From assembly GCF_022429625.1 (NCBI RefSeq), contig NZ_CP092483.1, positions 372,001 through 436,000 of the forward strand: a stretch of 64,000 bases of DNA, given 5' to 3'. Made by a program: the position numbers and the translations under genes. The notes beneath the pieces were generated by a model, which had not been told where the DNA came from, did no database searches, and was given only the letters and a program-made list of their open reading frames with translations. Source of the stretch: Devosia lacusdianchii (lineage in GTDB: Bacteria > Pseudomonadota > Alphaproteobacteria > Rhizobiales > Devosiaceae). Below, one piece after another: positions 3,337 through 61,333 of the stretch (positions within the stretch are counted from its first letter, which is position 1; each line of letters begins with the position of its first letter).

Positions 3337-3432
3337 CACTATCGCTGCCCGCAGCAGTAGGTTTTGACCTTGCCGCATGGCGAACCGAAACCTACCTCAT
3401 GGGTTCCGCGGGTCACAGACAAGGACAAACTC

Positions 3433-3858: not shown

Positions 3859-3912
3859 TCTGCTCCGTGAGAGTCTATAGCCTGTTCCGCGTTCGGACGC
3901 ATGAATGAAACC

Positions 3913-4260: not shown

Positions 4261-4370
4261 GTCGGCATGCCTCCGGCATTGATTGGTCCCCTTGGGCACA
4301 TCCAACAATTGCGACACCGAACGATGAGCTGTCACCTACCTCCTGGGTAATTTCCTTCACTTGCTCTGGT

Positions 4371-4600: not shown

Positions 4601-4672
4601 CACGGCCCATTAGCACCATTTCGCCTGGCTACCCTGCGGCGGCAATAGCCGCCTTCTGGCCTGGCCGTCGCC

Positions 4673-5560: not shown

Positions 5561-5652
5561 GGGGCAATCCCTTCATTCATATCGCTGGCCGATAGGTCCT
5601 TGCGGATTGCAGCGTCTAATCGTCGAAGAAGCAATGGCCTATCTTGCCGCCC

Positions 5653-6864: not shown

Positions 6865-7074
6865 CGGGCGCGCAGACAGAAACCATGACCCGGAGGAAAC
6901 TGTGGCACCGCACATTCGGCGGTGGGATCGCGGCCCATTTCGATTGGCTGGCTATCAGCATTGTCGGTGGCTTCGCCGACCATCCCGCCAATGTGCGGTC
7001 GGCGGCTGTTACCGAGGAACCCCGTCATGACGCCGTAGCGGTGCATTGCCCAGTCCCACCAAGGAGTCCTCTCC

Positions 7075-7551
7075 ATGAATGAAGCAAGGCCACTGCTCGG
7101 TCGACGCATGGTCCTCAAGGGAGTGTTCGCCGTAGCTGTGTTGCCCAATGTCGCCCTCGCCCAGGACTGGGGGGACCCGGCCAGTCAGGAGCCCAGTGAG
7201 ATGAAAATCCAGATGACCTTCAACGGCGCGACGATGATCGCGACGCTCTATGACAATCCATCCGCGCGAGACTTCGCCTCCATGCTCCCGCTCGACTTGA
7301 CCATAGACAGCTATGCCCACAACGAGAAGATCGCCTACTTGCCCCGCAAACTTACCGAGGACGGGAGCGGGCCATTCGGCAACGAACAACCCGGCGACCT
7401 CTGCTATTTCGCGCCATGGGGCAATCTGGCGCTGTTCTATTCCGGCTATCGCTACTCCAAGGGATTGATCAGGCTTGGCCGGTTCGACAACGGCTTCGAC
7501 CCTTTACTGGCCGCCGGCGCATTCCCGCTGCGCATCGAACTCGCGGCGTAA
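7075..7551 (+). CDS. Exported cyclophilin-like domain protein
   Basis: A 158-residue protein with a twin-arginine-like leader (GRRMVLKGVFAVAVLPNVALAQ) followed by a small beta-barrel: MKIQMTFNGATMIATLYDNPSARDF, then SMLPLDLTI, GDLCYFAPWGNLALFY and FPLRIELA. This is the pattern of the cyclophilin-like family often annotated in proteobacteria (PF18050 type). The conserved proline isomerase active-site residues of true cyclophilins are not obvious, so isomerase activity should not be assumed. A well-spaced AAGGAG lies before the ATG. It follows the MFS gene by about 210 bases that hold no clear gene. Confidence 0.75.
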   Translation: MNEARPLLGRRMVLKGVFAVAVLPNVALAQDWGDPASQEPSEMKIQMTFNGATMIATLYDNPSARDFASMLPLDLTIDSYAHNEKIAYLPRKLTEDGSGPFGNEQPGDLCYFAPWGNLALFYSGYRYSKGLIRLGRFDNGFDPLLAAGAFPLRIELAA

Positions 7552-46212: not shown

Positions 46213-46593
46213 ATGCTATTCGGGCTGTTCGTCCTGTTGGCCTGCCAGCTTGCCGGTGAGGTGATTGCCCGTGGGCTGGGACTGCCCATTCCGGGCCCGG
46301 TCATCGGCATCGTCCTGCTTTTCGCGCTGCTCACTATCCACGGCCGGATGAAACAGGCCGAAAAGGCCGAGCAGGGCGACGTCGCCAAGGCAGCCGATGG
46401 TCTCCTCGCCAATCTGGGCCTGGTCTTCGTCCCCGCCGGCGTCGGCATTTCGCAGCACTACCAGCTCATTTTCGACAATGGCATTGCCCTTATCGCGGCG
46501 CTCGTTGTCTCGACGGCGCTGACGCTGATCGTCACCGTGCTCGTGTTCCGGGCCGTTAGCCGCCTCGTCACGCGGGAGGAGAACCCGTCATGA
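46213..46593 (+). CDS. lrgA: CidA/LrgA family holin-like protein
   Basis: A 126-residue protein with four hydrophobic segments and the LrgA pattern LLACQLAGEVIARGLGLPIPGPVIGIVLLFALL (in parts) followed by GLLANLGLVFVPAGVGI. CidA/LrgA proteins form membrane oligomers; in staphylococci they affect murein hydrolase activity, while plant and bacterial relatives also transport small acids. It starts 50 bases after the amidohydrolase gene and overlaps lrgB by four bases. Confidence 0.9.
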   Translation: MLFGLFVLLACQLAGEVIARGLGLPIPGPVIGIVLLFALLTIHGRMKQAEKAEQGDVAKAADGLLANLGLVFVPAGVGISQHYQLIFDNGIALIAALVVSTALTLIVTVLVFRAVSRLVTREENPS

Positions 46594-47318
46594 CCGGCTC
46601 TCCCGCCTTCGACCTCTGGGTCTATCTCGCCGCTAGTCCGCTGCTGTGGCTGACGCTCACCATCGGCGTCTTCCTGGCGGCCCAATACCTCGCCAGGCTC
46701 AGCGGCTTTCACACGCTGGTCAATCCGGTGCTCATCACCATTGTGCTGATCGTCCTGGTCCTGCAACTGACCGGCACCAGCTACAATACCTATTTCGATG
46801 GCGCCCAGTTCATCCATTTCATCCTCGGGCCGGCGACTGTGGCGTTGGCCGTGCCGCTCTACCGCAGCCGCAAGCTGGTCCGAGCCTCGGCGCTGCCAAT
46901 CCTGGCCGCACTCGCGGTTGGCGCGCCCTTCGCCATGCTCTCGGCCACCGGCATTGCCCTGCTGCTGGGCGCGGCGCAGCAGATTGTCCTGGCGCTGGTG
47001 CCGAAATCGGTCACGGCAGGCATTGCCGTCGGTATTGCTGGCGAGATCGGCGGTGAACCGGCACTGACAGCCGTGCTCGTCATCTCCACCGGCATTCTGG
47101 GCGCTATCATCGTCACCCCGCTGATGAACGCGCTGAGGATTACCGACTATGCCGCACGTGGCTTCGCTGCCGGCCTCACCTCGCACGGCATCGGCACTGC
47201 CCGAGCCTTTCAGGTGAACTCGGTCGCCGGCACCTTCGCCGGCCTGGCCATGGCCCTCAATGGCCTTGCGACCGCGTTCCTCGCACCACTGATCTTCCGC
47301 ACGCTGTTCGGTGCCTAG
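46590..47318 (+). CDS. lrgB: LrgB family membrane protein
   Basis: A 242-residue polytopic protein with seven or so helices. The LrgB signatures are NPVLITIVLIVLVLQLTGTSYNTYFDGAQFIHFILGPATVALAVPLYR (in parts) and ITDYAARGFAAGLTSHGIGTARAFQ near the C-terminus. It works with LrgA in the membrane. Relatives such as Bacillus PftAB carry pyruvate, so transport of a small carboxylate is a possible role. It is convergent with phnE2, overlapping it by four bases at the 3' ends. Confidence 0.93.
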   Translation: MTGSPAFDLWVYLAASPLLWLTLTIGVFLAAQYLARLSGFHTLVNPVLITIVLIVLVLQLTGTSYNTYFDGAQFIHFILGPATVALAVPLYRSRKLVRASALPILAALAVGAPFAMLSATGIALLLGAAQQIVLALVPKSVTAGIAVGIAGEIGGEPALTAVLVISTGILGAIIVTPLMNALRITDYAARGFAAGLTSHGIGTARAFQVNSVAGTFAGLAMALNGLATAFLAPLIFRTLFGA

Positions 47319-48163
47319 GCACTCGGCTTGTCGTTGATGATGCGGGCGCGAATGCGCATGGAGATCGCATCGATCACCGCCACGGTGACCAGGATCATCA
47401 GGATGATGAAGGCCGCCTCGTGCCAGTTGTTGATGCGAATGCGATCCGACAATTGCAGCCCGATGCCACCCGCACCGACAATACCCAGAATGGTGGCCGA
47501 GCGGACATTGGACTCGAAGAAATAGAGCACATGGCTGATCATGACCGGCAGCACTTGCGGGAACACGCCTAGCCGAACCGCATGCGTATCGCTGCCACCC
47601 GCGGCGCGCACGCCGTCCACCGATTTCCGATCGACATTCTCGATCGCCTCGGCAAACAGCTTGCCGAACACCATGACGTCGCCAACCGCGATAGCCAGCA
47701 CGCCCGCGAATGGCCCCATGCCGACCGCCGACACGAAGATCAGCGCCCAGACCAGCCCGTCAATGCCACGAAAGCCATCGAAGACGCGGCGCAGGCTGAA
47801 ATGGAACAGCCAATTGGGCACGATATTCTTGGCGCCCAGGAACCCGAGCGGCAGGGCAATCACCGCGGCGATCAGCGTGCCTAAAAAGGCCATGGCCAGC
47901 GTTTCGAGGATTGCATAGCAGAAGTCAAAGAAGCTCTCGCCCGGCCACGGCGGCAGCATCAGCCGCACCAGCATCCCAAGCTTGGACAGCCCGTCGAACA
48001 CCCGCAGCGGCGACGCGTCGATCCACCAGAGGCCGAAGGCCAGAACGGCCGCGAAGACAAGCCACAGGCCCCAGTCGCGCGCGCTCTGACCCCAGGGCCG
48101 ACGCAGCAACGCTGGATTGATGCTCTTGAGGCGGGCGATATCGGCTTGCGTGACGGTTTGCAT
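47315..48163 (-). CDS. phnE2: Phosphonate ABC transporter permease PhnE2
   Basis: A 282-residue permease with five or six helices. The conserved cytoplasmic loop KSVDGVRAAGGSDTHAVRLGVFPQVLP is followed by SNVRSATILGIVGAGGIGLQL, both diagnostic of PhnE. It is the last gene of the phnCDE1E2 operon and pairs with PhnE1, three bases upstream. It imports organophosphonates or related phosphorus compounds across the inner membrane. Confidence 0.94.
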   Translation of the reverse strand: MQTVTQADIARLKSINPALLRRPWGQSARDWGLWLVFAAVLAFGLWWIDASPLRVFDGLSKLGMLVRLMLPPWPGESFFDFCYAILETLAMAFLGTLIAAVIALPLGFLGAKNIVPNWLFHFSLRRVFDGFRGIDGLVWALIFVSAVGMGPFAGVLAIAVGDVMVFGKLFAEAIENVDRKSVDGVRAAGGSDTHAVRLGVFPQVLPVMISHVLYFFESNVRSATILGIVGAGGIGLQLSDRIRINNWHEAAFIILMILVTVAVIDAISMRIRARIINDKPSA

Positions 48164-48166
48164 GGT

Positions 48167-49072
48167 TCAATGCCCGGAAATGAGGTCTTGGCCGATCATG
48201 CGATGGCGGACGGTCTCGCACGCGATATCGATGATCGAAACCACGGCGATCAGCAGCAGCATGATCGCGGAAATGTCGGTGTATTCGAACTGGCGGATGG
48301 CGACATAGAGCTCCTGGCCAATGCCACCGGCCCCAACGATGCCCAGCGCCGAAGCGCCGCGCACATTGATTTCAAACCGCAGCAGCAGATAGCTCGCATA
48401 ATTGGGCAGCGCCTGCGGCACCACGGCCAGTCGCATCACCATCGGCCAGTTGCCGCCTGCCGCCCGCACACCCTCGATGCTGCGCGGGTCGACATTCTCG
48501 TTGACCTCGGCAAACAGCTTGCCCAGCGAGCCGGCAGTATGCACTGCGATCGCCAACACGCCCGCAAATGGCCCAAGGCCAAAGGCGAACACGAAGATGA
48601 GCGCGAAGACCAGTTCGGGAACGGTGCGGCAGAATTCGAGCACGCGCCGGGAAACGAAATAGAAGCCGTTGTTCGGCGTCAGGTTGCGCGAGGCGAAAAA
48701 GCACAGCGACAGCGCGAGCACACCACCCAGCACTGTGCCGACAAACCCCATCAGGATGGTTTCGACCAATAGCCGTAGCCAGAACCGCAATCCCCAATAC
48801 CATTCGCCCAGATCGGCTCCCAGCGTCTCCAGCGACAGGCTGGGAATGGTGCCCGCGATATAGGTCCAGGCCTTGGGCAGACCTTGCATCAACCCGGAAA
48901 GGTTGAAATCGCTGACCGAGACCGAAGCAACCAGTGCCGCGAGGAACAGCACGCCATAGAGCATCGTCCACGCGTGCCGCACGCGCTTGGCATGCTGGTA
49001 GCGCGCCTCGAACGACGTCAGGCGGTCATGCCGCGTTGTACTGCTGCGCTGTGGCTGGTCGAGCGTTGTCAT
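48167..49072 (-). CDS. phnE1: Phosphonate ABC transporter permease PhnE1
   Basis: A 301-residue permease homologous to the adjacent PhnE2, with the same RSIEGVRAAGGNWPMVMRLAVVPQALPNY loop (in parts) and NVRGASALGIVGAGGIGQEL motif. It has a longer N-terminal cytoplasmic tail and six helices. Two phnE genes in tandem are common in Hyphomicrobiales phn loci. It lies 65 bases after phnD on the same strand. Confidence 0.94.
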   Translation of the reverse strand: MTTLDQPQRSSTTRHDRLTSFEARYQHAKRVRHAWTMLYGVLFLAALVASVSVSDFNLSGLMQGLPKAWTYIAGTIPSLSLETLGADLGEWYWGLRFWLRLLVETILMGFVGTVLGGVLALSLCFFASRNLTPNNGFYFVSRRVLEFCRTVPELVFALIFVFAFGLGPFAGVLAIAVHTAGSLGKLFAEVNENVDPRSIEGVRAAGGNWPMVMRLAVVPQALPNYASYLLLRFEINVRGASALGIVGAGGIGQELYVAIRQFEYTDISAIMLLLIAVVSIIDIACETVRHRMIGQDLISGH

Positions 49073-49137: not shown

Positions 49138-50061
49138 TCAGTTGGCCGCGTTGCGACGACGGTCTTCGGCATTGTGTTCGGTGATGGCGATCACATCGAG
49201 ATAGTCTTCGTGCTTGGCCTCGACATAGCCGCTCGACTCGCCGCGGGTATAGGCGGCAAAGCCTTCCGGATCCTTGGTCGGGAACGCCATCAGCGCGGTC
49301 TTGAATTCATCCTGCAGTTCCTGCGGTAGACCCGTCAGGATCATGACAGGTGTGTTCGGGATGACGGGCGAGGTCCAGATGATGCGCACCGCGCCCTTTT
49401 CGATCAGGCCCTTCTTTTCCATGGTCTGGATATTGCCGGCGGTCTCGTTGCGCCAATGGGTGGCCACCGCTTCGAACGTGCCGTTGACGAGGCCGATTAC
49501 GCTCTGCTCATGGCCGCCGGAAAACGCCACGTCGCTGAAATACTCGTCGGCATTGGTGCCCAGCTCGGTCGAGAGGTAGTAGGACGGAACGGCATAGCCC
49601 GAGGTCGAGTTCGGGTCGGCAAAGGCGAAGGACTGGCCCTTGATGTCTTCCAGCGACTGGTAGCGGCTGTCAGCGCGCACGGCGATCACCGAATAGTAAC
49701 CGCGATTGCCGTCGCCATCGAGGGTGATGGCAACCGGAGCGATGGCCTCGCCCATGATCTTGCGCGCCAGGGCGTAGGCAGCCGGGCCGACCGAAGCGAT
49801 CTGCACGTGGCCCGAGCGCATCGCTTCGATCACCGCGGCATAGTCGGTGCCGCGCACGATCTTGACCGGCACGCCCAGCTCGCGGCTGAGGTAGTCGGCA
49901 TAGGGCTCGTTGCGGGCAATGGCGTCGGTCTCGTTCTCGCCCGACGAAATGCCGATGGTGAGTTCGGGATACTGCTCCCGCCAGTCCTGGGCGAGGGCAG
50001 GGACGATGAGGGCGACCGAAATCAGTACGGCCGCAGCGCTGCGGCGCACGAAAGTGAACAT
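49138..50061 (-). CDS. phnD: Phosphonate-binding periplasmic protein PhnD
   Basis: A 307-residue binding protein with signal peptide MFTFVRRSAAAVLISVALIVPALAQ. The PhnD fold shows in LTIGISSGENETDAIARNEPYADYLSRELGVPVKIVRGTDYAAVIEAM (in parts), FADPNSTSGYAVPSYYL and the SPVIPNTPVMI hinge region. It delivers phosphonate to PhnE1/E2. It is the second gene of the operon, 38 bases after phnC. Confidence 0.94.
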   Translation of the reverse strand: MFTFVRRSAAAVLISVALIVPALAQDWREQYPELTIGISSGENETDAIARNEPYADYLSRELGVPVKIVRGTDYAAVIEAMRSGHVQIASVGPAAYALARKIMGEAIAPVAITLDGDGNRGYYSVIAVRADSRYQSLEDIKGQSFAFADPNSTSGYAVPSYYLSTELGTNADEYFSDVAFSGGHEQSVIGLVNGTFEAVATHWRNETAGNIQTMEKKGLIEKGAVRIIWTSPVIPNTPVMILTGLPQELQDEFKTALMAFPTKDPEGFAAYTRGESSGYVEAKHEDYLDVIAITEHNAEDRRRNAAN

Positions 50062-50099: not shown

Positions 50100-50927
<828 letters not shown>

Positions 50928-50999: not shown

Positions 51000-52199
51000 T
51001 TAACTCATTCGAATGACATGCTCGTGACGCAGCAAACTATTGGCCGTAGGCACGCTTCCATCCGAATAGACCACGGCACCCTTGCTCAGCGTTGCCCGCA
51101 CGTGACCGACGCCGCGATCATCGGCGATGATCAGGTCGGCGCGCAGACCCCCGCGGATCTCACCGCGATCTTCGAGCCCCAGCGCCTGGGCCGGATTAAT
51201 AGTCGCGAGCCGTGCTGCCCCCGGCAGGCCCTCAGGATCGCTCTTGGCCAATACCAGCACGGCCGGCAACATGGCCGAGGGGTGATAGTCGGCAGCCAAC
51301 AGGTCGAGCAGGCCTTCGGCATGCGCATCGCGCGCCGATAGGTTGCCGGAATAGGACGTACCGCGCAGCGCATTAGGGGCGCCCATGGCATTGGCCAGGC
51401 CGCGCGCCTTGGCCTCCCGGGCCGCTTCCAGCGTCACCGGGAATTCGCTGATGGCGGCGCCCAGGTTCTGCATCTGCGCGACCTTTTCCACCGTGTCGTC
51501 GTCATGGCTGGCGAGCGGCACGCCGTGCAGGGCGCAGTACTGAGCAATCGCCCGCAGCGTCGCTGTCAGGTCGCCCGCCGTTTCCTTGCGCTCGCGGATG
51601 CGTTGCTCGAGATTGGCCGCCGCCTGCTCGATGGTGATGCCCTTGGCCTTGGATATGTTCGCCGCCTGCAATTCCAGGTCGCGATACTGCCCCTGGCCCG
51701 GCGTGTGGTCGCAGAGCGAGATCAGGTCGACCGAACCCTCCGCGATCAGTTCCTTCACCACCGATAGCGCGGCCGGGAAGGTCACTTCGAAGCGGGCATG
51801 CACCCGGTGATCGACCAGCAGCATCTCGGCATGCGAGCGGATCGCGCGGATCATCTCGCTGGTAAATTCGTAGCTCCGCATGTGTCCATAGGCCGAAGAC
51901 GGGCTGAACGATACCGCTGCGTAGGCGGTGGTGATGCCCGAATTGGCCAGCTTGCGATCGAGATCGCGCAGGCCCATTTCCATCGGCATGCGCACATTGG
52001 GGCGCGGCTCCAGCTCGCGTTCGATCATATCGCCATGCATGTCGATCATGCCCGGCATCAGGATCAGGCCGTTGCCGGTGATCTCCGCATCGGCGACCGG
52101 CTCCTCGCGGATTTCGGCGATGAGGCCGTCTTCGATGCGCAGTGCGCCGTTTTCGATGACCCGGTCGGCCAGGACAATACGGAAATCAGAGAGCCACAT
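51000..52199 (-). CDS. phnM: Alpha-D-ribose 1-methylphosphonate 5-triphosphate diphosphatase PhnM
   Basis: A 399-residue amidohydrolase-superfamily enzyme that removes pyrophosphate from the ribose 5-triphosphate intermediate before C-P cleavage. The metal-site motifs GMIDMHGDMIERELEPRP, DHTPGQGQYRD and PLASHDDDTVE are present. ATG at 52199 (MWLSDFRIVLADRV) matches the family start; the longer frame runs through phnL. It overlaps phnL by 14 bases and is the last gene of the phnFGHIJKLM transcript. Confidence 0.94.
   Translation of the reverse strand: MWLSDFRIVLADRVIENGALRIEDGLIAEIREEPVADAEITGNGLILMPGMIDMHGDMIERELEPRPNVRMPMEMGLRDLDRKLANSGITTAYAAVSFSPSSAYGHMRSYEFTSEMIRAIRSHAEMLLVDHRVHARFEVTFPAALSVVKELIAEGSVDLISLCDHTPGQGQYRDLELQAANISKAKGITIEQAAANLEQRIRERKETAGDLTATLRAIAQYCALHGVPLASHDDDTVEKVAQMQNLGAAISEFPVTLEAAREAKARGLANAMGAPNALRGTSYSGNLSARDAHAEGLLDLLAADYHPSAMLPAVLVLAKSDPEGLPGAARLATINPAQALGLEDRGEIRGGLRADLIIADDRGVGHVRATLSKGAVVYSDGSVPTANSLLRHEHVIRMS
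51003..51018. promoter_or_regulatory. Candidate PhnF operator, site 2 before phnC
   Basis: ACTCATTCGAATGACA contains the perfect palindrome TCATTCGAATGA and lies within the last codons of phnM. It closely matches the repeat before phnF. Confidence 0.55.
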
Positions 52200-52920
52200 G
52201 GTCTGCCCGTTCGCTTTCATCGGTGATGGCGCGCGTTGCCAGGTCGATCTCGCGATCGATGAGGTCGGCCACGTCGCCGGGATGGTGGAAGACGCCGACA
52301 ATAGCGACGCCTGCGGATTTGAGATCGGCCAGACGGCGTACCAGCGCGCTGCGCGCGCCGACGTCGAGCGATGCCGTTGGTTCGTCTAGCAGGAGCAATC
52401 GCTGTGGCAAAATCAGGGCCCGAGCCAGATTGACCTTTTGCTGTTCGCCGCCCGAAAACGTGCTCGGATAGGCGCGCCAAAGCTCGGGACGCACCCCGAA
52501 CTGGTCGAGCCAGTGCCGGGCCTGATCGAGCGCTTCTGCCTGCGATTGACCGGCCAGCAACAGCGGCTCGGCCACGATATCCTGCGCCGCCACGCGCGGA
52601 CGGGCATTGAGGAACTGGGTGACAAAGCCGATCTCCTGCCGCCGCAGCAGCGCGATATCGACGTCTGCCGCATTGGCCAGATCGATCTCGCCGAGCCGCG
52701 ACTGATACCAAAGGTGCCCGGCCACCGGCAGATAGCTGCGCCACAGCGTACGCAGCAGGGTGGATTTGCCGGCGCCATTATGCCCGCGCAGCAGCAGGAA
52801 TTCGCCTTTATGCAGGTCGAAGCTGATGTCTTCGAAAGCATGCAGCATGCTGTCGAGATGATACATGCGGAAGGTTTTGGTCAGTCCTTCGACGCGCAGC
52901 AGGGGTAGTGCGGTGGACAT
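52186..52920 (-). CDS. phnL: C-P lyase system ATP-binding protein PhnL
   Basis: A 244-residue ABC-type ATPase: Walker [15 protein letters not shown], signature FSGGEQQKVNLARAL, Walker B LLLLDEPTASLD, and the PhnL-specific GFVTQFLNARPRV. PhnL joins PhnK on the C-P lyase core complex, where ATP turnover is thought to open the core for substrate exchange. It begins eight bases after phnK and overlaps phnM. Confidence 0.94.
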   Translation of the reverse strand: MSTALPLLRVEGLTKTFRMYHLDSMLHAFEDISFDLHKGEFLLLRGHNGAGKSTLLRTLWRSYLPVAGHLWYQSRLGEIDLANAADVDIALLRRQEIGFVTQFLNARPRVAAQDIVAEPLLLAGQSQAEALDQARHWLDQFGVRPELWRAYPSTFSGGEQQKVNLARALILPQRLLLLDEPTASLDVGARSALVRRLADLKSAGVAIVGVFHHPGDVADLIDREIDLATRAITDESERADHVAL

Positions 52921-52928: not shown

Positions 52929-53750
52929 CTAGAGTTTGGCGTGAACGAGTTGCTGGGTGTAGGGGTGCTGTGGGTCCTGGAACACCTGGTCGGCCAGTCC
53001 CCGCTCCACCACTTCGCCATGCCGCATGACCAGTACGCGGTCGGCCATGGTGCGGATCACGCCGAGGTCGTGGCTCACCAATACCATGGTGATCTTGCGG
53101 TCGCGCTGGAGGCGCTTGAGCGTATCGAGCACCAGTGCCTGCACGCTGACATCGAGTCCCGTCGTGGGTTCGTCGAGCAGCAAGAGCGCCGGTTCGAGCG
53201 CGATGGCCTTGGCCAGTTGTACGCGCTGCTGCATGCCGCCTGACAACTCGATCGGCCGCGCGTCCATACGATCCAGCGGGAACTCAGAGGCCTCCAACGC
53301 CTCGCGCGCCTTGCCGCGCAGCACGTCAAAGCTGCGCTCGCCCGCAATCAGCAACCGCTCAGCGACATTGCCGCTGGAGCTATGCTTCATCAGCAGGCCC
53401 AGATGCGGGTTCTGGTAGACGATGCCGATGTGGCGAGCGCACAGCATGCGCCGGTCATAGCGGGCCATGTCGAACAGATTGCCATCCTCGCGGTTGGGCA
53501 GGCGCAGCCGATAGTCGCCACTATCAGGCGTGTCTTCGAGGTTCATCATGCGCAGCAGCGTCGACTTGCCTGAGCCGCTCTCACCCACAATACCCATCAC
53601 CTCGCCGGGATAGACCGTGAGATCGACATTGCGCAGGGCCGCGACATTGCCGTAGCGGCGCGACACGCCGCGCATGCTCAGCAGCGGTTGGGTGCGGGTC
53701 AGTTGCGGCTCCACCCGCTCCAGCGGCGCAGCGCTTGTGTCGATGCTCAT
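52929..53750 (-). CDS. phnK: C-P lyase system ATP-binding protein PhnK
   Basis: A 273-residue ABC ATPase close to the peptide-transport branch: Walker A GESGSGKSTLLRMM, signature LSGGMQQRVQLAKAI, Walker B LLLLDEPTTGLD, with the PhnK-typical HIGIVYQNPHLGLLMKHSSSGN. PhnK binds the PhnGHIJ core through PhnJ in E. coli. Its start overlaps phnJ by four bases. The C-terminal part lacks the cysteine motif of DppD-type transporters, as expected. Confidence 0.95.
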   Translation of the reverse strand: MSIDTSAAPLERVEPQLTRTQPLLSMRGVSRRYGNVAALRNVDLTVYPGEVMGIVGESGSGKSTLLRMMNLEDTPDSGDYRLRLPNREDGNLFDMARYDRRMLCARHIGIVYQNPHLGLLMKHSSSGNVAERLLIAGERSFDVLRGKAREALEASEFPLDRMDARPIELSGGMQQRVQLAKAIALEPALLLLDEPTTGLDVSVQALVLDTLKRLQRDRKITMVLVSHDLGVIRTMADRVLVMRHGEVVERGLADQVFQDPQHPYTQQLVHAKL

Positions 53751-54661
53751 GCCGAGAACTCCCCATTACGATACCAGGTCTGGCCGACCTCGACCGCTTC
53801 GCCCTCGGCCTTGCGGATCGCCTTGATCCCCAGATTGCTGTCGGAGACCTCGAACGCCGAACCGCCGCCCTCGATCGGGATTTCGTTCATGAAGAAGCCA
53901 CTGACGCCCGAGCGCTTGCACACCAGATGCGCGTGGTCCTCGACCAGATAGGGCCGATCCGAGAACACCAGCGGTTCCACCCGCGTAAACGGCGGCACGG
54001 CGAACAGCCTTTTCTCGCGCCCTGCCGACAGGAAGGTCAGGTGTCGCGCCATGTTGAGCTTGGGCACGTCCCAGCGCGGAATGGGCGACGGCGTCATCAC
54101 ATGCCGGCCGTTGACCAGGCTCGGATAACCCGCGCCCTGCATGATGCGTCCCTTGCGCACGATCTGCTCATAGAGCGTCAGCCACAGCTTGCCGTAATCG
54201 GCATCGGCATGCATCTGCCGCGCGATCGAGATATTGGGCTCCACCCCGCGCAAAGGCTCCGGGTTCGGCACCTGCAAGACGAGAATCTGGTCGTCCCGCA
54301 TCGTCTCTTCCGGCACCCGGTGGCGCGACTGCACAATCGAAGCGTCGAGCGTGTCCCAGGTCTCGGCAGCGCCCGAAACCCGGCTGATGAAGCGCCGGAT
54401 CGACGCCGCGTTGACGCCGTCATCGGCACCCTGGTCGATGACCTTGATCGTCGAGGCCGGATTGACCAGCGTGAGCGTCACCTGCAAGCCGCCCGTGCCC
54501 CAGCCGCGCGCCATCGGCACTTCGCGGCTGGCATAGGGCATCTGGCAGCCGGGCACGGCGATGGCCTTGAGCATCTTGCGGCGCAGCTCGCGCTTGGCCG
54601 ACGCATCGAGGAATCCGTAGCTGGTCGCCGCCCAGGGCTTGGTGAGAGTGGAAAGGCTCAT
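53747..54661 (-). CDS. phnJ: PhnJ-like C-P lyase subunit lacking the cluster and radical cysteines
   Basis: A 304-residue PhnJ homologue. In E. coli, PhnJ is the radical SAM enzyme that cleaves the C-P bond, with Gly32 as radical site, C241, C244 and C266 as [4Fe-4S] ligands and C272 as thiyl radical. Conserved here are the glycine region (AIAVPGCQMPYASREVPMARG, G38), the GWGTGGLQ, KVIDQGADD and TRHRVPEE motifs, and GREKRLFAVPPFTRVE. Where E. coli has FVCSDTDYC this protein reads FEVSDSNLG (V272, G278), and only C248 remains of the first pair (HLVCKRSG). The only cysteines are C39 and C248. It overlaps phnI and phnK by four bases each. Identity is sure; activity is doubtful or altered. Confidence 0.93.
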   Translation of the reverse strand: MSLSTLTKPWAATSYGFLDASAKRELRRKMLKAIAVPGCQMPYASREVPMARGWGTGGLQVTLTLVNPASTIKVIDQGADDGVNAASIRRFISRVSGAAETWDTLDASIVQSRHRVPEETMRDDQILVLQVPNPEPLRGVEPNISIARQMHADADYGKLWLTLYEQIVRKGRIMQGAGYPSLVNGRHVMTPSPIPRWDVPKLNMARHLTFLSAGREKRLFAVPPFTRVEPLVFSDRPYLVEDHAHLVCKRSGVSGFFMNEIPIEGGGSAFEVSDSNLGIKAIRKAEGEAVEVGQTWYRNGEFSA

Positions 54662-55743
54662 TCCGCGGGCTCCGTCTGAAGGATTTCTGCCGGTGCGGCG
54701 CTGGCGGTCGCCTGCTTGGCCTTGGCATCACGCATGGCGTCGAGCACCGACTGGAAGGTGACGTAGTGCGGCAGCTTGAAGTGGATGCAGAAGCCCGAGG
54801 CTTCGACACTTTCGGTGTGGTAGAGGTAGAATTCCTCGTGCACGGCCGAACCGACCGGCGCTTCGGCCGAGTTGAGATCGAGCGTCGCTGCGGCGATCAC
54901 CTTGACCTCGTTCCAGCCGAAGGTCGCCGCGAACCCCAGTTCGAGATAACCGCCCTTTTCCTTGGATGTGACCTCGGCCTGGCTCACCCGCACCCGACCC
55001 GCCGAGAATGATGTGCCGCGCGGATGCCGCACCACCACCTCGGCTTCGGCCAGGCGCAATTCGTTGACGGTTGGATGCGCATTGCCGTAGCCGCGCATCG
55101 CGGCATAGCCGAGGGCCAATACGCCACCTGTCTCCGCCCGCGCCAGGCTCTGCAGCCGATGCGCACGTGATGCCGGAAACAGCAGCGGCTCCCGCGTCAG
55201 GTCTGGAATGTCTTCAGCGGCAACGTCCGATTCAGTCGCTGGCGCCACCAGCCCCTGCCGCCGCTGCCAGTCCGCCAGCGCCGGCTGTCGTGCCGGGGCA
55301 GGGCGGTCAGCCGCTTCCACCTCCGGCGGGCTGAACGGCGTTCCCTCCAGCACATCGGTGGCCAGCACGCGGTGCGAATAATCGAGCGTCGGCCCGAGAA
55401 TTTGGCCGCCTGGAATGTCCTTGAACGCTGCCGAAATCCGGCGCTGGGTCAGCAGGTCCGCCTGCTGCACGGGCGCGGCAATGGCGATACGCGGCTGCGT
55501 CGTGCGCCAGGCGCGCAATACCAGCACCGCCTCCGAAAGCTCGCCGCCCGTCTGCGCCAGCGCCAGCGCCGCCAGCTCCTCGTCATAGAGCGAGGCTTCG
55601 CCCATGACCCGGTCGATCAGATAGGGCATGGATTTGCGGATCGCGGCGACGCGCTCGGCGTCGATCGCCCCCAGGTCCTGCCGGAACAGCCGTTCGGCCT
55701 GGTCGATGGCCTTTTCCCCGCCACGGGTTGCAACATAAGCCAT
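54658..55743 (-). CDS. phnI: C-P lyase core subunit PhnI
   Basis: A 361-residue PhnI, which with PhnG, PhnH and PhnL transfers phosphonate to the ribose of ATP. Family motifs: YVATRGGEKAIDQAERLF at the start, RISAAFKDIPGGQILGPTLDYSHRVLA, HRLQSLARAETGG, LALGYAAMRGYGNAHPTV, and the zinc-binding region EEFYLYHTESVEASGFCIHFKLPHY. Length is normal. It overlaps phnH by one base and phnJ by four. Confidence 0.95.
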   Translation of the reverse strand: MAYVATRGGEKAIDQAERLFRQDLGAIDAERVAAIRKSMPYLIDRVMGEASLYDEELAALALAQTGGELSEAVLVLRAWRTTQPRIAIAAPVQQADLLTQRRISAAFKDIPGGQILGPTLDYSHRVLATDVLEGTPFSPPEVEAADRPAPARQPALADWQRRQGLVAPATESDVAAEDIPDLTREPLLFPASRAHRLQSLARAETGGVLALGYAAMRGYGNAHPTVNELRLAEAEVVVRHPRGTSFSAGRVRVSQAEVTSKEKGGYLELGFAATFGWNEVKVIAAATLDLNSAEAPVGSAVHEEFYLYHTESVEASGFCIHFKLPHYVTFQSVLDAMRDAKAKQATASAAPAEILQTEPAE

Positions 55744-56279
55744 CAGAGCACCTCCACCATGGTCGAGCGAGGGATGCCGATGACCGCATCGTCATCGACC
55801 AGCAACAGGTCGAACCCCTCGGGATAGGCGCAAAGCTGCGCCCGCAAAGCCCAGAATTCCGGTGGCAGGCTCAGTGACACCTCCCGCGCCCGCTCGACGC
55901 CCGGTCCAGTCAGCCGCAACCAATACTCGCCGTCATGCCGCGTCCGCATCGCCAGCGTCGCGCCATCATCGGGATAGAGCGCGCTGCCGCAGCGCAGGGC
56001 TTCGAGCCACGCCGTTCCGCCCAGCGTGTCCACAAACACATGGTCGGCTTCCTCAACCTGGCGCGTCACCCGCGCCCCGGTTTGCGCGACCCGAGCCATG
56101 AGGTCAGCGCTATCGGCGAAAACGGTGCATTCGAGATCGATCAGCGCTTCGATAATGCCGCCGAGTCCGGCCTCGGGCAGCGCCCGGACTTCACCCGGCC
56201 GCGCCATGGACCACATCAGCGCTTCGAACGTGGCGTTGGATCGGGCTTCGGCCCGATCGGGGGCTGCAACCGTCAACAT
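55743..56279 (-). CDS. phnH: C-P lyase core subunit PhnH
   Basis: A 178-residue PhnH with the conserved start ATFEALMWSMARPGEVRALP, the central GTAWLEALRCGSALYPDDGATLA, WLRLTGPGVERAREVSLS, and the end IGIPRSTMVEV. PhnH is a structural core subunit that contacts PhnJ and PhnG. Start and stop overlap its neighbours by one base each, indicating coupled translation. Confidence 0.94.
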   Translation of the reverse strand: MLTVAAPDRAEARSNATFEALMWSMARPGEVRALPEAGLGGIIEALIDLECTVFADSADLMARVAQTGARVTRQVEEADHVFVDTLGGTAWLEALRCGSALYPDDGATLAMRTRHDGEYWLRLTGPGVERAREVSLSLPPEFWALRAQLCAYPEGFDLLLVDDDAVIGIPRSTMVEVL

Positions 56280-56722
56280 CAGAACGTCTCCATTTCAACG
56301 CGCGTGGCCTCGACCTGCCGCATGCGCATGTCGTCCTCGGCTGTGAGGTAAGCCCGCTCGCTATCGATGAAGGTCGTGACGGCGGCGTGGGCGCCGTTGG
56401 CTGCGATGCTGAGGTCGATCACCGCCATCGCCATGGCGCGTTCAAGATCACGGCCAGTGACCATGCCGTAGCCGACATGCCCACCGCCATCAGTGATATG
56501 CGCCTCGCTGACCAGCACTTCGCCCAGGTGAAAATCGACATTCGCCACCGTGTCGCGCAGCGGCACCATCACGAGGCCTGTGCGGTTGGTCACGACTTCG
56601 ATATCGCCCAGCCCATCCAGCACTGCTTCCGCCAGTGCCTTCAGCCCATCCGGTCGGGCGCGCGCCAGCACATTCAGGATCGCGGCGTGGTCCGGCCCGC
56701 CGCCCGTGCTTTCATTGAACAT
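56279..56722 (-). CDS. phnG: C-P lyase core subunit PhnG
   Basis: A 147-residue PhnG, matching the family length of about 150. Motifs include ETGLV-like NRTGLVMVPLRDT, HLGEVLVSEAHI, GHVGYGMVTGRDLERAMAMAVIDL and the C-terminal RQVEATRVEMETF (E. coli has AARQAEVNASRVDFFTM). ATG at 56722 has AAAGGA seven bases upstream and is preferred over a longer frame from 56827 that lies inside phnF. It overlaps phnF by 11 bases. Confidence 0.93.
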   Translation of the reverse strand: MFNESTGGGPDHAAILNVLARARPDGLKALAEAVLDGLGDIEVVTNRTGLVMVPLRDTVANVDFHLGEVLVSEAHITDGGGHVGYGMVTGRDLERAMAMAVIDLSIAANGAHAAVTTFIDSERAYLTAEDDMRMRQVEATRVEMETF

Positions 56723-57479
56723 CGTCGGTCCTTTCGGTCGCCATCGCGCCCGTCGGGGCGGTTTCGAAGGTGAATTGCACGCGATCACCCGCCCAGGCCG
56801 CTTCCGAGAAGCCGATCGGCGCGCCACTCAGGTCCACGTCGGTCTTCTGCACGATCAGCACCGATTGGCCCGGCCGCATCATCAGCAGCGATGTCTCGTG
56901 CTCGGTGGCGAGGCGGGTGAAAATGGTCGTGCTTTGCCGGCGGTAGTCGGCAATGCCATAGCTGCGGTAGATTTCGGTGATCGACCCGCCGGCCTTGCGT
57001 CGTTCGGTCAGGTCGGGAAAGCGCGCCGCGTCATGATAGGACCAGCCCAGGCTGATCGGCAGCTCATTGGCAAAGCCGCGCCATGAGCGCGCCGTTACCA
57101 GCGCACCGGGCTCGAGCTTGAGCGCCGCGGCGACGCGTGTGCTGGCCGGTATCTGCATTTCCGAAAGGCTCTGTCCCGACGCCGTCAGCCCCTGCGACAG
57201 CAGGTTTTCGCGGAAGCGCGTGCGTGGCCCGATGACATAGTTCAGCAGCGGCGCGCGCTCGACGAACGTGCCCCGGCCATGCTCCACCCGCAGCTTGCCC
57301 TCGGCCACCAGCGCCGCCAGCGCCCGGCGCAGCGAATGGCGTCGCGCGCCATAGAGCAGGCACAGTTCAGGCTCGGACGGCAGCCGGGCATCGGGCGTCA
57401 GGTGCCCTGACGCGATCTCGTCGCTGATCTTGTCGCGCGTGGTCTCCCACGTCTGCCCTCGACTGCGCATTCCAACCAT
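56712..57479 (-). CDS. phnF: Phosphonate regulator PhnF (GntR/HutC type)
   Basis: A 255-residue GntR-family regulator. The winged helix (about residues 10-75) includes ARLPSEPELCLLYGARRHSLRRALAALVAEGKLRVEHGRGTFV (in parts), and a UTRA effector domain follows (GFSEAAWAGDRVQFTFE end motif). It heads the phn operon and an inverted repeat lies five bases before its start codon, suggesting autorepression. Two similar repeats precede phnC, so it likely controls both import and breakdown. Confidence 0.93.
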   Translation of the reverse strand: MVGMRSRGQTWETTRDKISDEIASGHLTPDARLPSEPELCLLYGARRHSLRRALAALVAEGKLRVEHGRGTFVERAPLLNYVIGPRTRFRENLLSQGLTASGQSLSEMQIPASTRVAAALKLEPGALVTARSWRGFANELPISLGWSYHDAARFPDLTERRKAGGSITEIYRSYGIADYRRQSTTIFTRLATEHETSLLMMRPGQSVLIVQKTDVDLSGAPIGFSEAAWAGDRVQFTFETAPTGAMATERTDDVQ

Positions 57480-57499: not shown

Positions 57500-57584
57500 C
57501 GGAAATAGCCCCCGGGCGTAACAGCCGTATGACGGTAAAGCCAAGGTTGCATTTGGCGCCGCTCTGAGGTCTGTGTGGGCGCAA

Positions 57585-58706
57585 ATGTTTCGCTTCGTTC
57601 ACAGCTCCGATCTCCACATCGGCAAGCGCTTCGGCAATTTGCCGGAGGACTTGCGCGGACGCCTGCGCGAGGCGCGCCACGGCGCCATCGCCCGCTTGGC
57701 CGACGCGGCGCGCAACCATGGCGCGAGCACGATCCTGCTGGCCGGCGATACCTTCGATACCGAAACGCCATCCCCCGCCATGCTGCGTCAGGCGCTGACC
57801 GAGATGGGGCACCACGCGCCCCTCAACTGGGTCCTGCTGCCGGGTAACCACGATAGCCTGCTCGCCGACCAGCTTTGGGACGCTGCGCGCGCGGCAGCCC
57901 CGCCAAACGTCGTGCTGGCGACCGAACCTGCTATCGTGACCCTCGCGCCCGGCGTTGCGCTGCTGCCCGCTCCCTGCACCACCCGCCGGCCAGGTCGCGA
58001 CCTCACGGCCTGGATGGATAGCGCCGAGACGCCATCCGGCACCTTGCGCATTGGTCTCGCCCACGGCCCGATCCAGCAATTTTCCGAAGACGCCGTCGCC
58101 TCATCGGTCATTGCGCCCAACCGCGCCGCGCTGGCCCGTCTCGACTATCTGGCACTCGGCGACTGGCACGGCCAGGTCGCGGTGAACGAGCGCACCCGCT
58201 ATAGCGGCACGCCCGAACCCGATCGCTTCAAGCATGCCAAGCCGGGGCAGGCCCTAGTGGTGAGCGTTGCTGGCCCCGGCGCTCTGCCCGATATCACGCC
58301 CGTCGATACCGCCAGCTTCGCCTGGCAAACACTCCCCCTGCCGCTTCTCTCCGACGACGGCGCCGCCGCACTCGCCGTGCTGTTGCCCGATGCGTCGCTG
58401 CGGCGGCAGACATTGCTCCGCATCGAAGCCGCCGGTCGTGTCCGCATGAGCGGTCGCGCCGCCCTCGCCGCCGCCGTCGAACAGGCGGCGCCTGATTTCG
58501 CCCACCTCGAACTCGATGCCACTGATCTCGCGACCGACTGCGAGAGCACCGACCTCGACCTAATCGATCGGGCCGGCGCTCTCCGCGACGCGGCCGATGC
58601 ATTGCTCGCCGAAAGCACGGACGTCACCCGCTCCGCCCGTGAGCGCGATATCGCCCGCGAAGCACTGGTGCGTCTCTTCACCTATGGCGAGGCCATCGCG
58701 CCATGA
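57585..58706 (+). CDS. SbcD/YhaO-like DNA repair metallophosphoesterase
   Basis: A 373-residue calcineurin-like phosphoesterase: FVHSSDLHIGKRF (first D/H pair), LLAGDTFDT, LLPGNHDSL, LRIGLAHGP and LDYLALGDWHGQV supply the bimetal ligands. It is the nuclease half of an SbcCD/Mre11-Rad50-type complex, closest in size and partner to YhaO. Start ATG at 57585 is chosen; four codons upstream another ATG is possible. It overlaps the ATPase gene by four bases. Confidence 0.9.
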   Translation: MFRFVHSSDLHIGKRFGNLPEDLRGRLREARHGAIARLADAARNHGASTILLAGDTFDTETPSPAMLRQALTEMGHHAPLNWVLLPGNHDSLLADQLWDAARAAAPPNVVLATEPAIVTLAPGVALLPAPCTTRRPGRDLTAWMDSAETPSGTLRIGLAHGPIQQFSEDAVASSVIAPNRAALARLDYLALGDWHGQVAVNERTRYSGTPEPDRFKHAKPGQALVVSVAGPGALPDITPVDTASFAWQTLPLPLLSDDGAAALAVLLPDASLRRQTLLRIEAAGRVRMSGRAALAAAVEQAAPDFAHLELDATDLATDCESTDLDLIDRAGALRDAADALLAESTDVTRSARERDIAREALVRLFTYGEAIAP

Positions 58707-61333
58707 AGCTGACGGCTCTGCGTCTGCACAATGTCAAGCGCTTCGGCGGGCAGGGCGTCGCCATCGAAGGCATTGGCGACGGCGTCAACGTGCTGAGTGC
58801 CCCCAATGAATATGGTAAGTCGACCTGCTTCGAGGCGCTGCATGCCCTGTTCTTCCAGCCGCATACCGGCACGCCCAAACCGGTGCAATTGCTGCGTCCC
58901 TATAGCGGCGGCAGCCCGTTGGTGGAGGCCGATATCGCCACCGATGCCGGGCACTATCGCCTGACCAAGCAATACTATGCTGGCAAGCGCGCCACCGTGA
59001 CCGATCTCGATACTGGCCGTCTCATCGCCCAGGCCGATGAGGCCGAAGCTTTCATCGCCGATCTCACCCGCGGTGGCAGCGCCGGGCCGGCGGGTCTGCT
59101 CTGGGTGCGCCAGGGCATTACCGGCATCGAGAGGCGCAGCAATAGCGAGGAGGAAAGCGAGACGCGGGTGCGCGAAAGCGTGCTGACCTCCGTGCAGGGC
59201 GAGGTCGAGTCGCTCACCGGCGGACGGCGCATGGCCGAGATTGCTGCGGCGTGTGAGGAGGAGCTTTTCAAGCTGGTGACGGCAACGTTGAAGCCCAAGA
59301 CCGGCGGCCGCTATGCCACGGCGCTCGGCGATCGGGACCGCCTGCTTGCCGAAGAGCAGCGTTTGGCGGCCGAAGTCACAACGCTACGCGAAGCGCTGGA
59401 CCAGCGTCGACGCACACGCGCCCGCCTCGCCGAGATCGAAAATCCTGAAGAGGAAGCCGCACGCCTCGCCGCGGTGACGGCAGCCGAGGCCGCATTCGAG
59501 GCCGCCAAATCCCACCACGAGGCGCTCAAGGCTGCCGAGGCCGAAGCGGCACTGGCACGGCACCGCCACGAGGCGGCACAGATGGCGCTGGAGGCATTCG
59601 TCGCCGCCTCGCAGCAAGCCGACATCCTCGAACAGCGCCTCGTTCCCCTGCAGCGTCATCGCGACGATGCGCTGGCCCGGCGCGAAAGCGCCGCCGCCGA
59701 CAATGACCGTGCTGCCGCCGCCATCCAGCTTGCCGAAACCGAAGAGCGCGAAAATCGTCAGCTGCTGTCGCGCCTCGAAACCGCCCTGCGCGCCCGCGAC
59801 GCGGCCGAGCAGCTCAAGCAATTGCGCTCCCGGTTGCAGCAGGCTGACCGCGCTCGCTTGCAGGTGGAGGAAGCCGAGGCGGCGCTGGCAATCCTGGCCC
59901 TGTCGGATACGGCGTTGGAGCAATTGCAGGCGCTCGACCTCGAACTCGTCCGGCTAAAGGCGGCGCAGGATGCCACCTTGCCGACCTGGCGACTGGACCC
60001 CGCGCCTAATGCCGGTGCCCAGGTCAGCCTCGACGGACGCCCCATCGAGGCGGGTCGCGACCACACATTCTCCGGGGCGGCGCGGCTCGATATTGCCGGT
60101 GTCGGGTCGCTGACCCTGCGTTCCAATCGTCCAGCGCAAGCCGGTCAGGCCATGGAACAGGTCGCCGCCAAGCACAAGGCGCTGCTGGCCTCACTGGGTG
60201 TGGAGAGTCTGGCCGCGGCACGGCAGCGGCAAGCGCTGGCGCGCGACAAGACGAGCGAACTGGATTTGGCCCGGCAGCGTCTTGCCGACCTCGCACCGCG
60301 CGGTCTCGTGCCGCTACAAGCCGAGATCGCTCGCCTGGCCGAACTCGATGCCGAGGCGCTGGAACTCAAGGGTGATCCGGAGCTGGCCCGTCAGGCGCAT
60401 GCCGTGTCCGAGCAGCAGGTGTCCGCCACCCGCAATGCCGCACGCGAAATCCAGCCCATTCTGGGCCTCGCGGTCAACGCTCTGCTCGATGCTGAGACCG
60501 CGCTGGCCGCCAACGCCGCCGAGCGCGCAAGTCTCGAGTCACAGCTCGGCCCTGCCGCCGAACGGCCGGCCCGGCAGCGGGCACTGGCGGAGGGCAACGC
60601 CGCCAGTTTGGCGGAGCACGAAAGGGCCGAGGCGCATGCCGCGTCGCTGCGCAGCGCTGGGCATGATCTGGCCGCCGCTGACACCGCTTTGCGCCGGGCT
60701 CGCTCCGTGCAGCAGGCGGCGGTGCAGGAAGTCAACCAATTGCGCATGACGCTGGCTGACCTTAACGGACACATCAATGGCCGCGCCGATGCCGCTATCG
60801 AAGAGGTCTGGCAGGAGACCGCGGGGCAATTGGCCGCCGCCCAGGCCAGCGTCGATGCCTTGGAAACCGAGATCGCCGTACTCGATCGCCTGCGACAGGC
60901 CCTGGCGACGGCGCGCTCGGCCGCCCGCGACCTCTATCTCAAGCCGGTGTTGACAGAGTTGCGGCCACTGATCGGCCTGCTATTCGACGACATCGCCATT
61001 GAGTTCGACGAGGAGACCTTGCTGCCCAACCGGGTGCGGCGCAAGGGCCAGGATGAGGATGTCGATCGGCTGAGCGGCGGCATGCGCGAACAATTGTCAG
61101 TGCTGACGCGTCTGGCCTTTGCCCGCCTGCTGGCCCGCGACGGCCGTCCGGCGCCGGTCATTCTGGACGATGCGCTGGTCTATTCCGACGACGACCGGAT
61201 CGAACGCATGTTCGATGCCCTGCATCAGCAGTCCCAGGACCAGCAGATACTGGTCTTCTCCTGCCGTCAGCGCGCCTTTGCCAGGCTGGGCGGCAATGTG
61301 CTGCACATGCAGGCGTGGATTCCTGCGGTGTAA
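58703..61333 (+). CDS. SbcC/YhaN-like SMC-type ATPase
   Basis: An 876-residue Rad50/SMC-type protein. The N-terminal Walker A is APNEYGKSTCFEALHALFF (variant of GxNxxGKS), and a long Ala/Glu/Arg-rich coiled coil spans about residues 170-740 with a break near 410-470. The C-terminal head has signature LSGGMREQLSVLTRLAFARLL and Walker B APVILDDALVYSDDDR. It is longer than nothing but the core and shorter than E. coli SbcC (about 1050). It works with the preceding phosphoesterase on DNA ends or hairpins. Confidence 0.9.
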   Translation: MKLTALRLHNVKRFGGQGVAIEGIGDGVNVLSAPNEYGKSTCFEALHALFFQPHTGTPKPVQLLRPYSGGSPLVEADIATDAGHYRLTKQYYAGKRATVTDLDTGRLIAQADEAEAFIADLTRGGSAGPAGLLWVRQGITGIERRSNSEEESETRVRESVLTSVQGEVESLTGGRRMAEIAAACEEELFKLVTATLKPKTGGRYATALGDRDRLLAEEQRLAAEVTTLREALDQRRRTRARLAEIENPEEEAARLAAVTAAEAAFEAAKSHHEALKAAEAEAALARHRHEAAQMALEAFVAASQQADILEQRLVPLQRHRDDALARRESAAADNDRAAAAIQLAETEERENRQLLSRLETALRARDAAEQLKQLRSRLQQADRARLQVEEAEAALAILALSDTALEQLQALDLELVRLKAAQDATLPTWRLDPAPNAGAQVSLDGRPIEAGRDHTFSGAARLDIAGVGSLTLRSNRPAQAGQAMEQVAAKHKALLASLGVESLAAARQRQALARDKTSELDLARQRLADLAPRGLVPLQAEIARLAELDAEALELKGDPELARQAHAVSEQQVSATRNAAREIQPILGLAVNALLDAETALAANAAERASLESQLGPAAERPARQRALAEGNAASLAEHERAEAHAASLRSAGHDLAAADTALRRARSVQQAAVQEVNQLRMTLADLNGHINGRADAAIEEVWQETAGQLAAAQASVDALETEIAVLDRLRQALATARSAARDLYLKPVLTELRPLIGLLFDDIAIEFDEETLLPNRVRRKGQDEDVDRLSGGMREQLSVLTRLAFARLLARDGRPAPVILDDALVYSDDDRIERMFDALHQQSQDQQILVFSCRQRAFARLGGNVLHMQAWIPAV

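Follow-up and report, generated by a model that had tools for sequence, protein, structure and literature searches.

The phnJ gene studied here lies in a 64,000-nucleotide stretch of the Devosia lacusdianchii genome (contig NZ_CP092483.1, positions 372,001 to 436,000), which we call the window. It is the fifth gene of a carbon-phosphorus (C-P) lyase operon with the gene order phnF-G-H-I-J-K-L-M-C-D-E-E, all on one strand. The open reading frame (53747..54661, minus strand) begins with ATG, is intact from end to end, and encodes 304 amino acids, among which the only cysteines are C39 and C248. On score the product belongs to the PhnJ family PF06007 (367.7 bits against a cut-off of 25; residues 13-277 on profile positions 3-268 of 275), and it matches E. 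coli PhnJ (4xb6_D) with an E-value of 1.7e-79. An AlphaFold model made from 98 sequences of both PhnJ types described below, canonical proteins included, reached a predicted local distance difference test (pLDDT) score of 86.7 and a predicted template modeling (pTM) score of 0.86, and Foldseek aligned it to the E. coli PhnJ chains with template modeling (TM) scores of 0.81-0.83 at 45-47% identity (7z19_H: E 1.1e-33, TM 0.82). The modeled fold is that of E. coli PhnJ. A model from 17 close sequences was of no use (pLDDT 39).

In E. coli PhnJ, Cys241, Cys244 and Cys266 hold a [4Fe-4S] cluster, Cys272 is the proposed thiyl radical, and Gly32 is the proposed glycyl radical site. Alignment showed that the window protein keeps just one of the four cysteines, C248 (53918..53920, minus strand), the counterpart of C241. 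The other three counterparts, identified by alignment and direct translation on the same strand, are S251 for C244 (codon TCG, 53909..53911), V272 for C266 (GTC, 53846..53848) and G278 for the proposed thiyl-radical residue C272 (GGG, 53828..53830). The glycine is retained, with G38 aligning to Gly32. A first-pass annotation of the window had described a PhnJ without these cysteines, and its coordinates and residues proved to be right. Because the defining cysteines were tested and found missing, both among the cluster ligands (S251, V272) and at the thiyl position (G278), we class the protein as a PF06007 homologue in a C-P lyase operon and not as a radical S-adenosylmethionine PhnJ.

The loss is shared by a large set of relatives. 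The closest named relatives of the window PhnJ are mostly from Devosia. In the window's family (136 genomes), PF06007 scores separated 26 full-length variants (365-390 bits) from canonical proteins (418-500 bits, two of them partial), with four fragments at 215-255 bits set aside. We read 25 low-scoring loci, 24 from this family (all but G444 and G448) and one, G015, from another, and the three cysteines were absent from every one. Variants were also found in 16 of the 347 genomes from the order (479-688 bits with the window protein as reference, all others reaching at most 296), by score in 2 of the 77 PhnJ-bearing genomes among 389 of the class, and in 5 of 397 genomes of the phylum, all five in the window's class. 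The fetched loci yielded 241 PhnJ proteins, of which 39 were dropped as repeats. The resulting 202 different sequences, which include those of E. coli and the window, fell into two groups without intermediates: 107 have cysteine at all four sites and 95 read C-(S/T)-x-(G/A). Within these 95 alphaproteobacterial variants, the position of C248 is always cysteine, that of S251 is serine in 94 and threonine in one, that of V272 is V, L, I, A, M or T but never C, and that of G278 is glycine in 92 and alanine in three. The first-pass annotation would have given up its claim if close relatives had the cysteines back or if the cysteines had moved within the protein. No member that we read has them back, and none has moved in a conserved way, C39 being tyrosine or serine in 4 of the 95.

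The cysteine-poor form extends well beyond the Alphaproteobacteria. A scan of genome contigs confirmed 546 of 589 candidate stretches, a count that may include some four-cysteine relatives because one of the two patterns used also fits two sister sequences. The best 80 were kept as named loci, and they come from Devosia, the Rhodobacteraceae and their allies, the Rhizobiaceae and other Alphaproteobacteria. A plasmid search found a cysteine-poor PhnJ on pVV8 of Thermus thermophilus HB8, and the PhnJ of Synechococcus sp. WC101 (P0124) is cysteine-poor as well. Protein searches from these two sequences, each giving the best 120 of 8000 scored and hence no measure of how common the type is, listed 154 different proteins (P0121-P0274), those with a name belonging to Thermus, Meiothermus, Deinococcus, Synechococcus, Anaerolineae, Roseiflexaceae, Oscillochloris and Chloroflexota. 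Each of the 154 keeps at most one of the four cysteines (one in 142, none in 12), and the C248 position is serine or aspartate in 12 of these Thermus- and Synechococcus-side proteins. No relative was found in a search of viral contigs with the Synechococcus PhnJ. Two records from these surveys are unusual in themselves. NZ_CP069355.1, a plasmid of Microvirga sp. VF16, has nine places similar to the window PhnJ by tblastn, by a wide margin the most among the 40 matches listed, and a 356-residue database PhnJ (P0002) repeats an internal stretch of about 50 residues in tandem, which may come from misassembly.

A tree of 61 chosen sequences was built with E. coli as outgroup after removal of the four cysteine columns and the C39 column. 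The cysteine-poor forms lie on one side of a single branch, with bootstrap and Shimodaira-Hasegawa-like approximate likelihood ratio test (SH-aLRT) support of 99/98, and the state changes once in 200 of 200 bootstrap trees. The successive neighbors of the clade are proteobacterial four-cysteine PhnJ proteins, then those of haloarchaea, then the E. coli type; the join to the proteobacterial sisters has support of only 91/61. A preliminary tree, made rapidly from 87 of the 202 sequences, is consistent with this. Since the four cysteines are present on both sides of the clade, the most parsimonious account is a single ancient loss in a lineage that once possessed them. From these alignments we also conclude that sequencing error or chance is excluded as the source of the loss, because the pattern recurs in 95/95 alphaproteobacterial members and in the whole cross-phylum set of 154 listed proteins. 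The annotation's suggestion that such proteins might form a conserved clade is strongly supported, and the clade spans several phyla, far more than the window shows.

We found variant PhnJ to be under strong purifying selection. The median ratio of nonsynonymous to synonymous substitution rates (dN/dS) was 0.101 for variant PhnJ against 0.093 for canonical PhnJ, taken over 65 pairs, not independent of each other, among 14 genomes holding both types; 26 of the 91 genome pairs had been dropped for want of a readable locus or for dS >=2. Together with the single cross-phylum clade, these values refute the earlier proposal that function was lost very recently. In the C-terminal part (residues 230-304), 20 of 75 positions show the same residue in 94 or more of the 95 variants. 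The residues G32, R107, H108 and Q124 (E. coli numbering) are kept in 95/95 alphaproteobacterial and 154/154 listed other variants. According to excerpts of the structural work on the E. coli enzyme, the last three contact bound 5-phosphoribosyl 1,2-cyclic phosphate, PRcP (PMC9947105), and the metal site between PhnI and PhnJ holds a product analogue (PMC9947105; PMC7916636). The window PhnI keeps H223, H321 and H326, the equivalents of the metal-site histidines H219, H328 and H333 of E. coli, and across 114 variant PhnI proteins, a set in which some genomes are counted twice (as in the matching set of 113 PhnH), the three histidines are kept in 113, 114 and 114 with one gap. The Thermus PhnI keeps them too.

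The other genes of the operon, all on the minus strand, were assigned by family models (bits against the model cut-off). First comes phnF (56712..57479), encoding a GntR/UTRA regulator (TIGR02325, 176.4 vs 156.8). It is followed by variant phnG (56279..56827; PF06754; TIGR03293, 89.5 vs 89), whose listed start overlaps phnF and whose true start is probably internal, variant phnH (55743..56279; PF05845; TIGR03292, 106.8 vs 91.5) and variant phnI (54658..55743; PF05861, 354.8 bits). Downstream of phnJ, variant phnK (52929..53750) and phnL (52186..52920) encode ATP-binding cassette (ABC) ATPases whose best NCBIfam matches are PhnK (TIGR02323, 224.1 bits) and PhnL (TIGR02324, 221.6 bits), below the curated cut-offs of 302.85 and 256.3. 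The phnM gene (51000..52301), for the ribosyl-phosphonate triphosphate (RPnTP) diphosphatase, matched NF011988 (523.6 vs 369) and TIGR02318 (421.5 vs 390.55); its listed TTG start overlaps phnL, and the true start is probably internal. Transport genes complete the operon: the phosphonate transporter ATPase phnC (50100..50927; TIGR02315, 331.3 vs 266.1), the phosphonate-binding protein phnD (49138..50061; TIGR03431, 288.7 vs 261.1) and two phnE permeases (48167..49072 and 47315..48163; TIGR01097, 269.2 and 281.9 vs 216.7). In NCBIfam, no PhnJ or PhnI model matched the variant proteins, and no PhnJ model matched the canonical copy either.

The first-pass annotation had called this a complete operon in which the subunits other than PhnJ look normal. 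The operon is indeed complete, but the other subunits are not simply normal: in all 25 variant loci, the window included, every subunit from G to M (G, H, I, J, K, L, M) scores higher against the window's protein than against that of E. coli, which places them all in the same divergent lineage. The variant GHIJKLM set is complete in 75 of the 80 named loci, and the remaining five are without one to three of the genes.

Several neighboring genes were recorded around these operons. In the window, an open reading frame for an SbcD-like nuclease and a large one with a weak Rad50-like match (57573-61333) diverge from phnF, and a gene for an LrgB-like membrane protein (PF04172, 243 bits; 46590-47318) on the opposite strand abuts the last permease gene. 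In 21 of the 80 named loci the variant operon is accompanied by a xylose-isomerase-like TIM-barrel gene, mostly on the opposite strand (for example L160, 8895-9716), and PhnM-like amidohydrolases recur near the operon (for example L157, 11481-14650). A sugar phosphate isomerase/epimerase family protein is encoded after phnM in Haloarcula halophila and downstream on Thermus pVV8.

The first-pass annotation had proposed a search for a second phnJ, and the window genome (a single contig of 4.36 Mb) does hold a second phn operon, whose PhnJ, at C1:1100129, has all four cysteines. Other genomes carry the variant alone. Among the 26 window-family genomes with a full-length variant, 7 have no other PF06007 match, and one of these, G428, is a single contig. 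A test for a second PhnJ covered 50 of the 80 named loci, and six genomes were variant-only: Devosia sediminis, D. marina, D. indica, D. subaequoris, D. elaeis and Paenochrobactrum gallinarii. The other 44 carry a canonical PhnJ as well, by score. Rhizobium sp. CG5 (L152, G859) has three PhnJ proteins by score, one canonical and two of the variant type.

The variant-only genomes differ in what stands beside the operon. A phnN gene lies within the locus in 5 of the 6 variant-only named genomes vs 0 of the 44 with both types (Fisher p 3e-6, uncorrected for kinship); in D. elaeis it lies 12-13 kb from the variant operon, outside the stretch read. In D. sediminis, D. marina and D. indica, a divergent block (L143-L145, about 350-7190) carries E-E-D-C, a hexapeptide gene, phnN and a canonical-type phnM, and reads like a canonical operon in which GHIJKL has been replaced. 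Four variant-only named genomes have a canonical-type phnM beside the variant operon, and in Mesorhizobium sp. AR07 the variant phnM is followed on the same strand by genes for a DUF1045 protein and PhnN. Because phnN, the canonical-type block and DUF1045 stand beside variant operons, this arrangement suggests that the product of the variant complex enters the usual ribosyl-phosphate pathway. The presence of PhnN as such was uninformative, being above cut-off in 32 of 36 genomes, whether or not they have PhnJ, so that only its linkage to the variant operon discriminates. DUF1045 was likewise uninformative as proof of PRcP formation, since it occurs in all 20 of the PhnJ-bearing genomes and in 15 of 19 that lack PhnJ. 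A second phnN paralogue lies near a DUF1045 gene (for example G000:C1:258550-260734) in most Devosia-type genomes tested, those lacking PhnJ included.

A Pho-box-like site with 3 of 14 mismatches lies 39-56 bases upstream of phnF in the window (57518..57535, minus strand). It is not significant alone, but it sits where many relatives have one. When up to 3 mismatches in 14 to the E. coli consensus are allowed, 28 of 74 loci have such a site 30-90 bases before phnF vs 0.2 expected from background density; a special rule for two loci with a differently called start brings the number to 30. Six of the 80 loci were left out as having no readable phnF or phnG, and 44 of the 74 have no site in this interval at this threshold. 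In a wider zone, sites were found in 37 of 74 loci vs 5.5% of shuffled controls. The variant operon thus probably answers to phosphate starvation.

We lean, with modest confidence, toward the reading that these loci encode a working, phosphorus-scavenging branch of C-P lyase in which the PhnJ step would proceed without a cysteine-ligated cluster, the reaction taking place at the PhnI-PhnJ metal site. A complete PhnGHIJKLM complex would be made under phosphate starvation and would take phosphorus from phosphonates. Substrate activation by PhnI, PhnG, PhnH and PhnL, pyrophosphate removal by PhnM and ATP-driven opening by PhnK and PhnL would all be retained. The ribosyl-phosphonate would be held in the conserved pocket between PhnI and PhnJ, and its C-P bond would be broken at the metal bound by the PhnI histidines and not by a thiyl radical from PhnJ C272. 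We infer C-P bond cleavage by the variant complex with the usual ribosyl phosphate product; the chemistry at the PhnI metal site may involve iron and oxygen, another thiol or an activated substrate. The wider claim, that the cross-phylum branch breaks unactivated C-P bonds and releases alkanes such as methane through this metal site, with neither cluster nor thiyl cysteine, we put forward only tentatively, as possible but more doubtful.

Several observations weigh against this reading. None of the chemistries known to cleave unactivated alkyl C-P bonds does so without radicals or oxygenases. Nor does any set of replacement ligands hold across the entire clade. We considered H243-C248-E271 as a new metal site, and it is present in 95/95 Alphaproteobacteria, where H243 and E271 are invariant, but not clade-wide: elsewhere H243 is replaced by I, Q, V, L or M, and E271 is sometimes Q, Y or another residue. 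The C-terminal part of variant PhnJ (230-304) is looser than the whole protein, with a ratio of nonsynonymous to synonymous differences (pN/pS) of 0.25 vs 0.15, a comparison made within the variant alone, and this counts somewhat against a vital role for that part. Most carriers could leave C-P cleavage to a canonical enzyme, as 44 of 50 have one. The association with phnN spans only two lineages, and phnN occurs in just 6 of the 80 named variant loci, all six belonging to variant-only genomes or to a genome matching a variant-only one. With the E. coli protein as query, no PhnP was found in the 80 named loci, and in 20 genomes of either type the matches were far below cut-off (best 55.8 vs 272.25 bits). 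Finally, the genomes behind the 28 of 74 Pho-box-like sites are related to each other.

We considered whether the complex is active but does a different job. It could act on carbonyl-activated phosphonates or on phosphite-like or other phosphorus compounds, or it could only make or open ribosyl-phosphonates, so that no radical C-P cleavage would be needed. The frequent company of a canonical C-P lyase in the named carriers suggests such a division of labor, and the scarcity of phnN in variant loci points the same way. In PhnJ itself, a comparison of 26 variant with 16 canonical rows shows 61 type-specific, near-invariant differences, and the three lost cysteines account for only a few of these. 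The substrate-binding protein resembles PhnD and the phosphite-binding PtxB to a similar degree: the best solved relatives of the window PhnD are PhnD 3p7i (90 bits) and PtxB 5o2j (85.8 bits). We had looked to this transporter protein for a clue to the substrate, and it is ambiguous. In contrast, the ribosyl-phosphonate pocket is fully conserved, and most variant-only named genomes have phnN beside the operon, four of them with a canonical-type phnM, as in the ordinary pathway. A phn cluster and growth on phosphonates are also reported for the hot-spring strain Synechococcus JA-2-3B'a(2-13) (PMC5955973), whose PhnJ may or may not be of this type; we treat the report as a lead and not as evidence. 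Overall, we consider a different job rather unlikely.

Radical chemistry might instead have been kept, with the cluster or radical coming from another source: ligands on partner subunits, a separate activating enzyme, or a different thiol (PhnI C319 or PhnJ C39, for example). The invariance of G32 in all variants read fits such a scheme, as do two cysteines that E. coli does not have: PhnI C319, two residues before a metal-binding histidine, in 114 of 114 alphaproteobacterial variants, and PhnH C51, in 104 of 113. None of these thiols held up as a candidate. PhnI C319 cannot be the relocated catalytic cysteine of the clade because it is alanine in Thermus, which makes it at most an alphaproteobacterial feature. 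PhnJ C39, beside the glycine, fails as a substitute thiyl cysteine, being mostly tyrosine in the wider set in addition to its four alphaproteobacterial replacements, and the occurrences of C39 and PhnH C51 do not go together, which argues against a pair. Among the families that recur around the operon in the 80 loci, surveyed by eye with only three proteins checked against Pfam, none looked radical- or Fe-S-like. We regard retained radical chemistry as improbable.

The first-pass annotation had also raised a dead scaffold, and we considered a scaffold or regulator that borrows a canonical PhnJ encoded elsewhere. This fits the window genome, which has such a copy, as do 44 of the 50 named carriers. 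It fails in general because variant-only genomes exist (7/26 and 6/50), in at least two alphaproteobacterial lineages and in one case on a single contig. The variant subunits also make up a separate group at a great distance from their canonical counterparts, and variant dN/dS is as low as canonical, and we give a dead scaffold very little credence. Sequencing error, a pseudogene or very recent loss can be dismissed with near certainty, given the same pattern in 95/95 and 154/154 listed homologues, intact frames and strong purifying selection.

C-P lyase is the broad-range route by which bacteria draw phosphorus out of phosphonates, and it has been proposed to generate methane in oxygenated water. 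A radical mechanism for it was reportedly described by Kamat et al. in 2011. The mechanism is unsettled because the Fe-S site of the E. coli enzyme lies about 30 Å from the proposed glycyl radical, as given in excerpts of two sources (PMC9947105; PMC7916636). A clade that lacks the Fe-S cysteines and retains the pocket, the metal site and the complete complex can serve as a natural test of which site does the chemistry: either the Fe-S cysteines are not always needed, or the cysteine-poor branch does different chemistry. If the clade does cleave C-P bonds, textbook requirements change, and the cluster-and-cysteine scheme of E. coli PhnJ would not be the only route and possibly not the essential chemistry even there. 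If it does not, surveys that use phnJ as a marker for methane or phosphonate use would be tallying the wrong enzyme in groups that include Rhodobacteraceae, Devosia and Chloroflexota. Excerpts of two studies provide examples of such markers, K06163 in Marivita (PMC8774927) and PF06007 (PMC10291797), and Marivita sp. SBSPR2, analyzed in the first of these, has both PhnJ types by score. We found no description of the cysteine-poor clade in the open-licence PMC literature searched, a scope that leaves out most subscription papers.

Compared with known systems, the window protein is most readily set beside E. coli PhnJ (PDB 4xb6, 7z15-7z19). The two share the fold, Gly32, R107, H108, Q124 and the position in a phnGHIJKLM operon, whereas the variant is without three of the four Fe-S and thiyl cysteines and has a longer C-terminal tail, with 26 residues after position 278 (Y297 and G300 conserved) vs 9 after C272 in E. 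coli. Its nearest four-cysteine relatives, in haloarchaea (for example Haloarcula halophila) and in the proteobacterial genomes G813, G1177, G1124 and G931, keep all four cysteines. In the four proteobacterial genomes PhnM and PhnK score best against the window's variant PhnM and PhnK, and the operons contain phnN and phnP, unlike that of the window. On the cyanobacterial side, Synechococcus sp. WC101 is probably a hot-spring strain related to JA-2-3B'a(2-13), which reportedly releases methane or ethane; in 2011 Gomez-Garcia et al. reportedly described Synechococcus OS-B' growing on phosphonates with release of methane or ethane. The Thermus thermophilus HB8 plasmid pVV8, said to have been described by Ohtani et al. 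in 2012, carries a complete C-D-E-G-H-I-J-K-L-M operon like the variant operons. Its PhnJ (WP_014677597.1) is 60.0% identical to the window PhnJ over residues 14-283 and is also cysteine-poor, with only C243 and with T, V and M at the other sites; it lacks H243, and the PhnI of the plasmid lacks C319. The search for a further PhnJ in this strain was confined to the pVV8 plasmid. T. thermophilus HB8 would offer a tractable and thermostable source of the variant complex.

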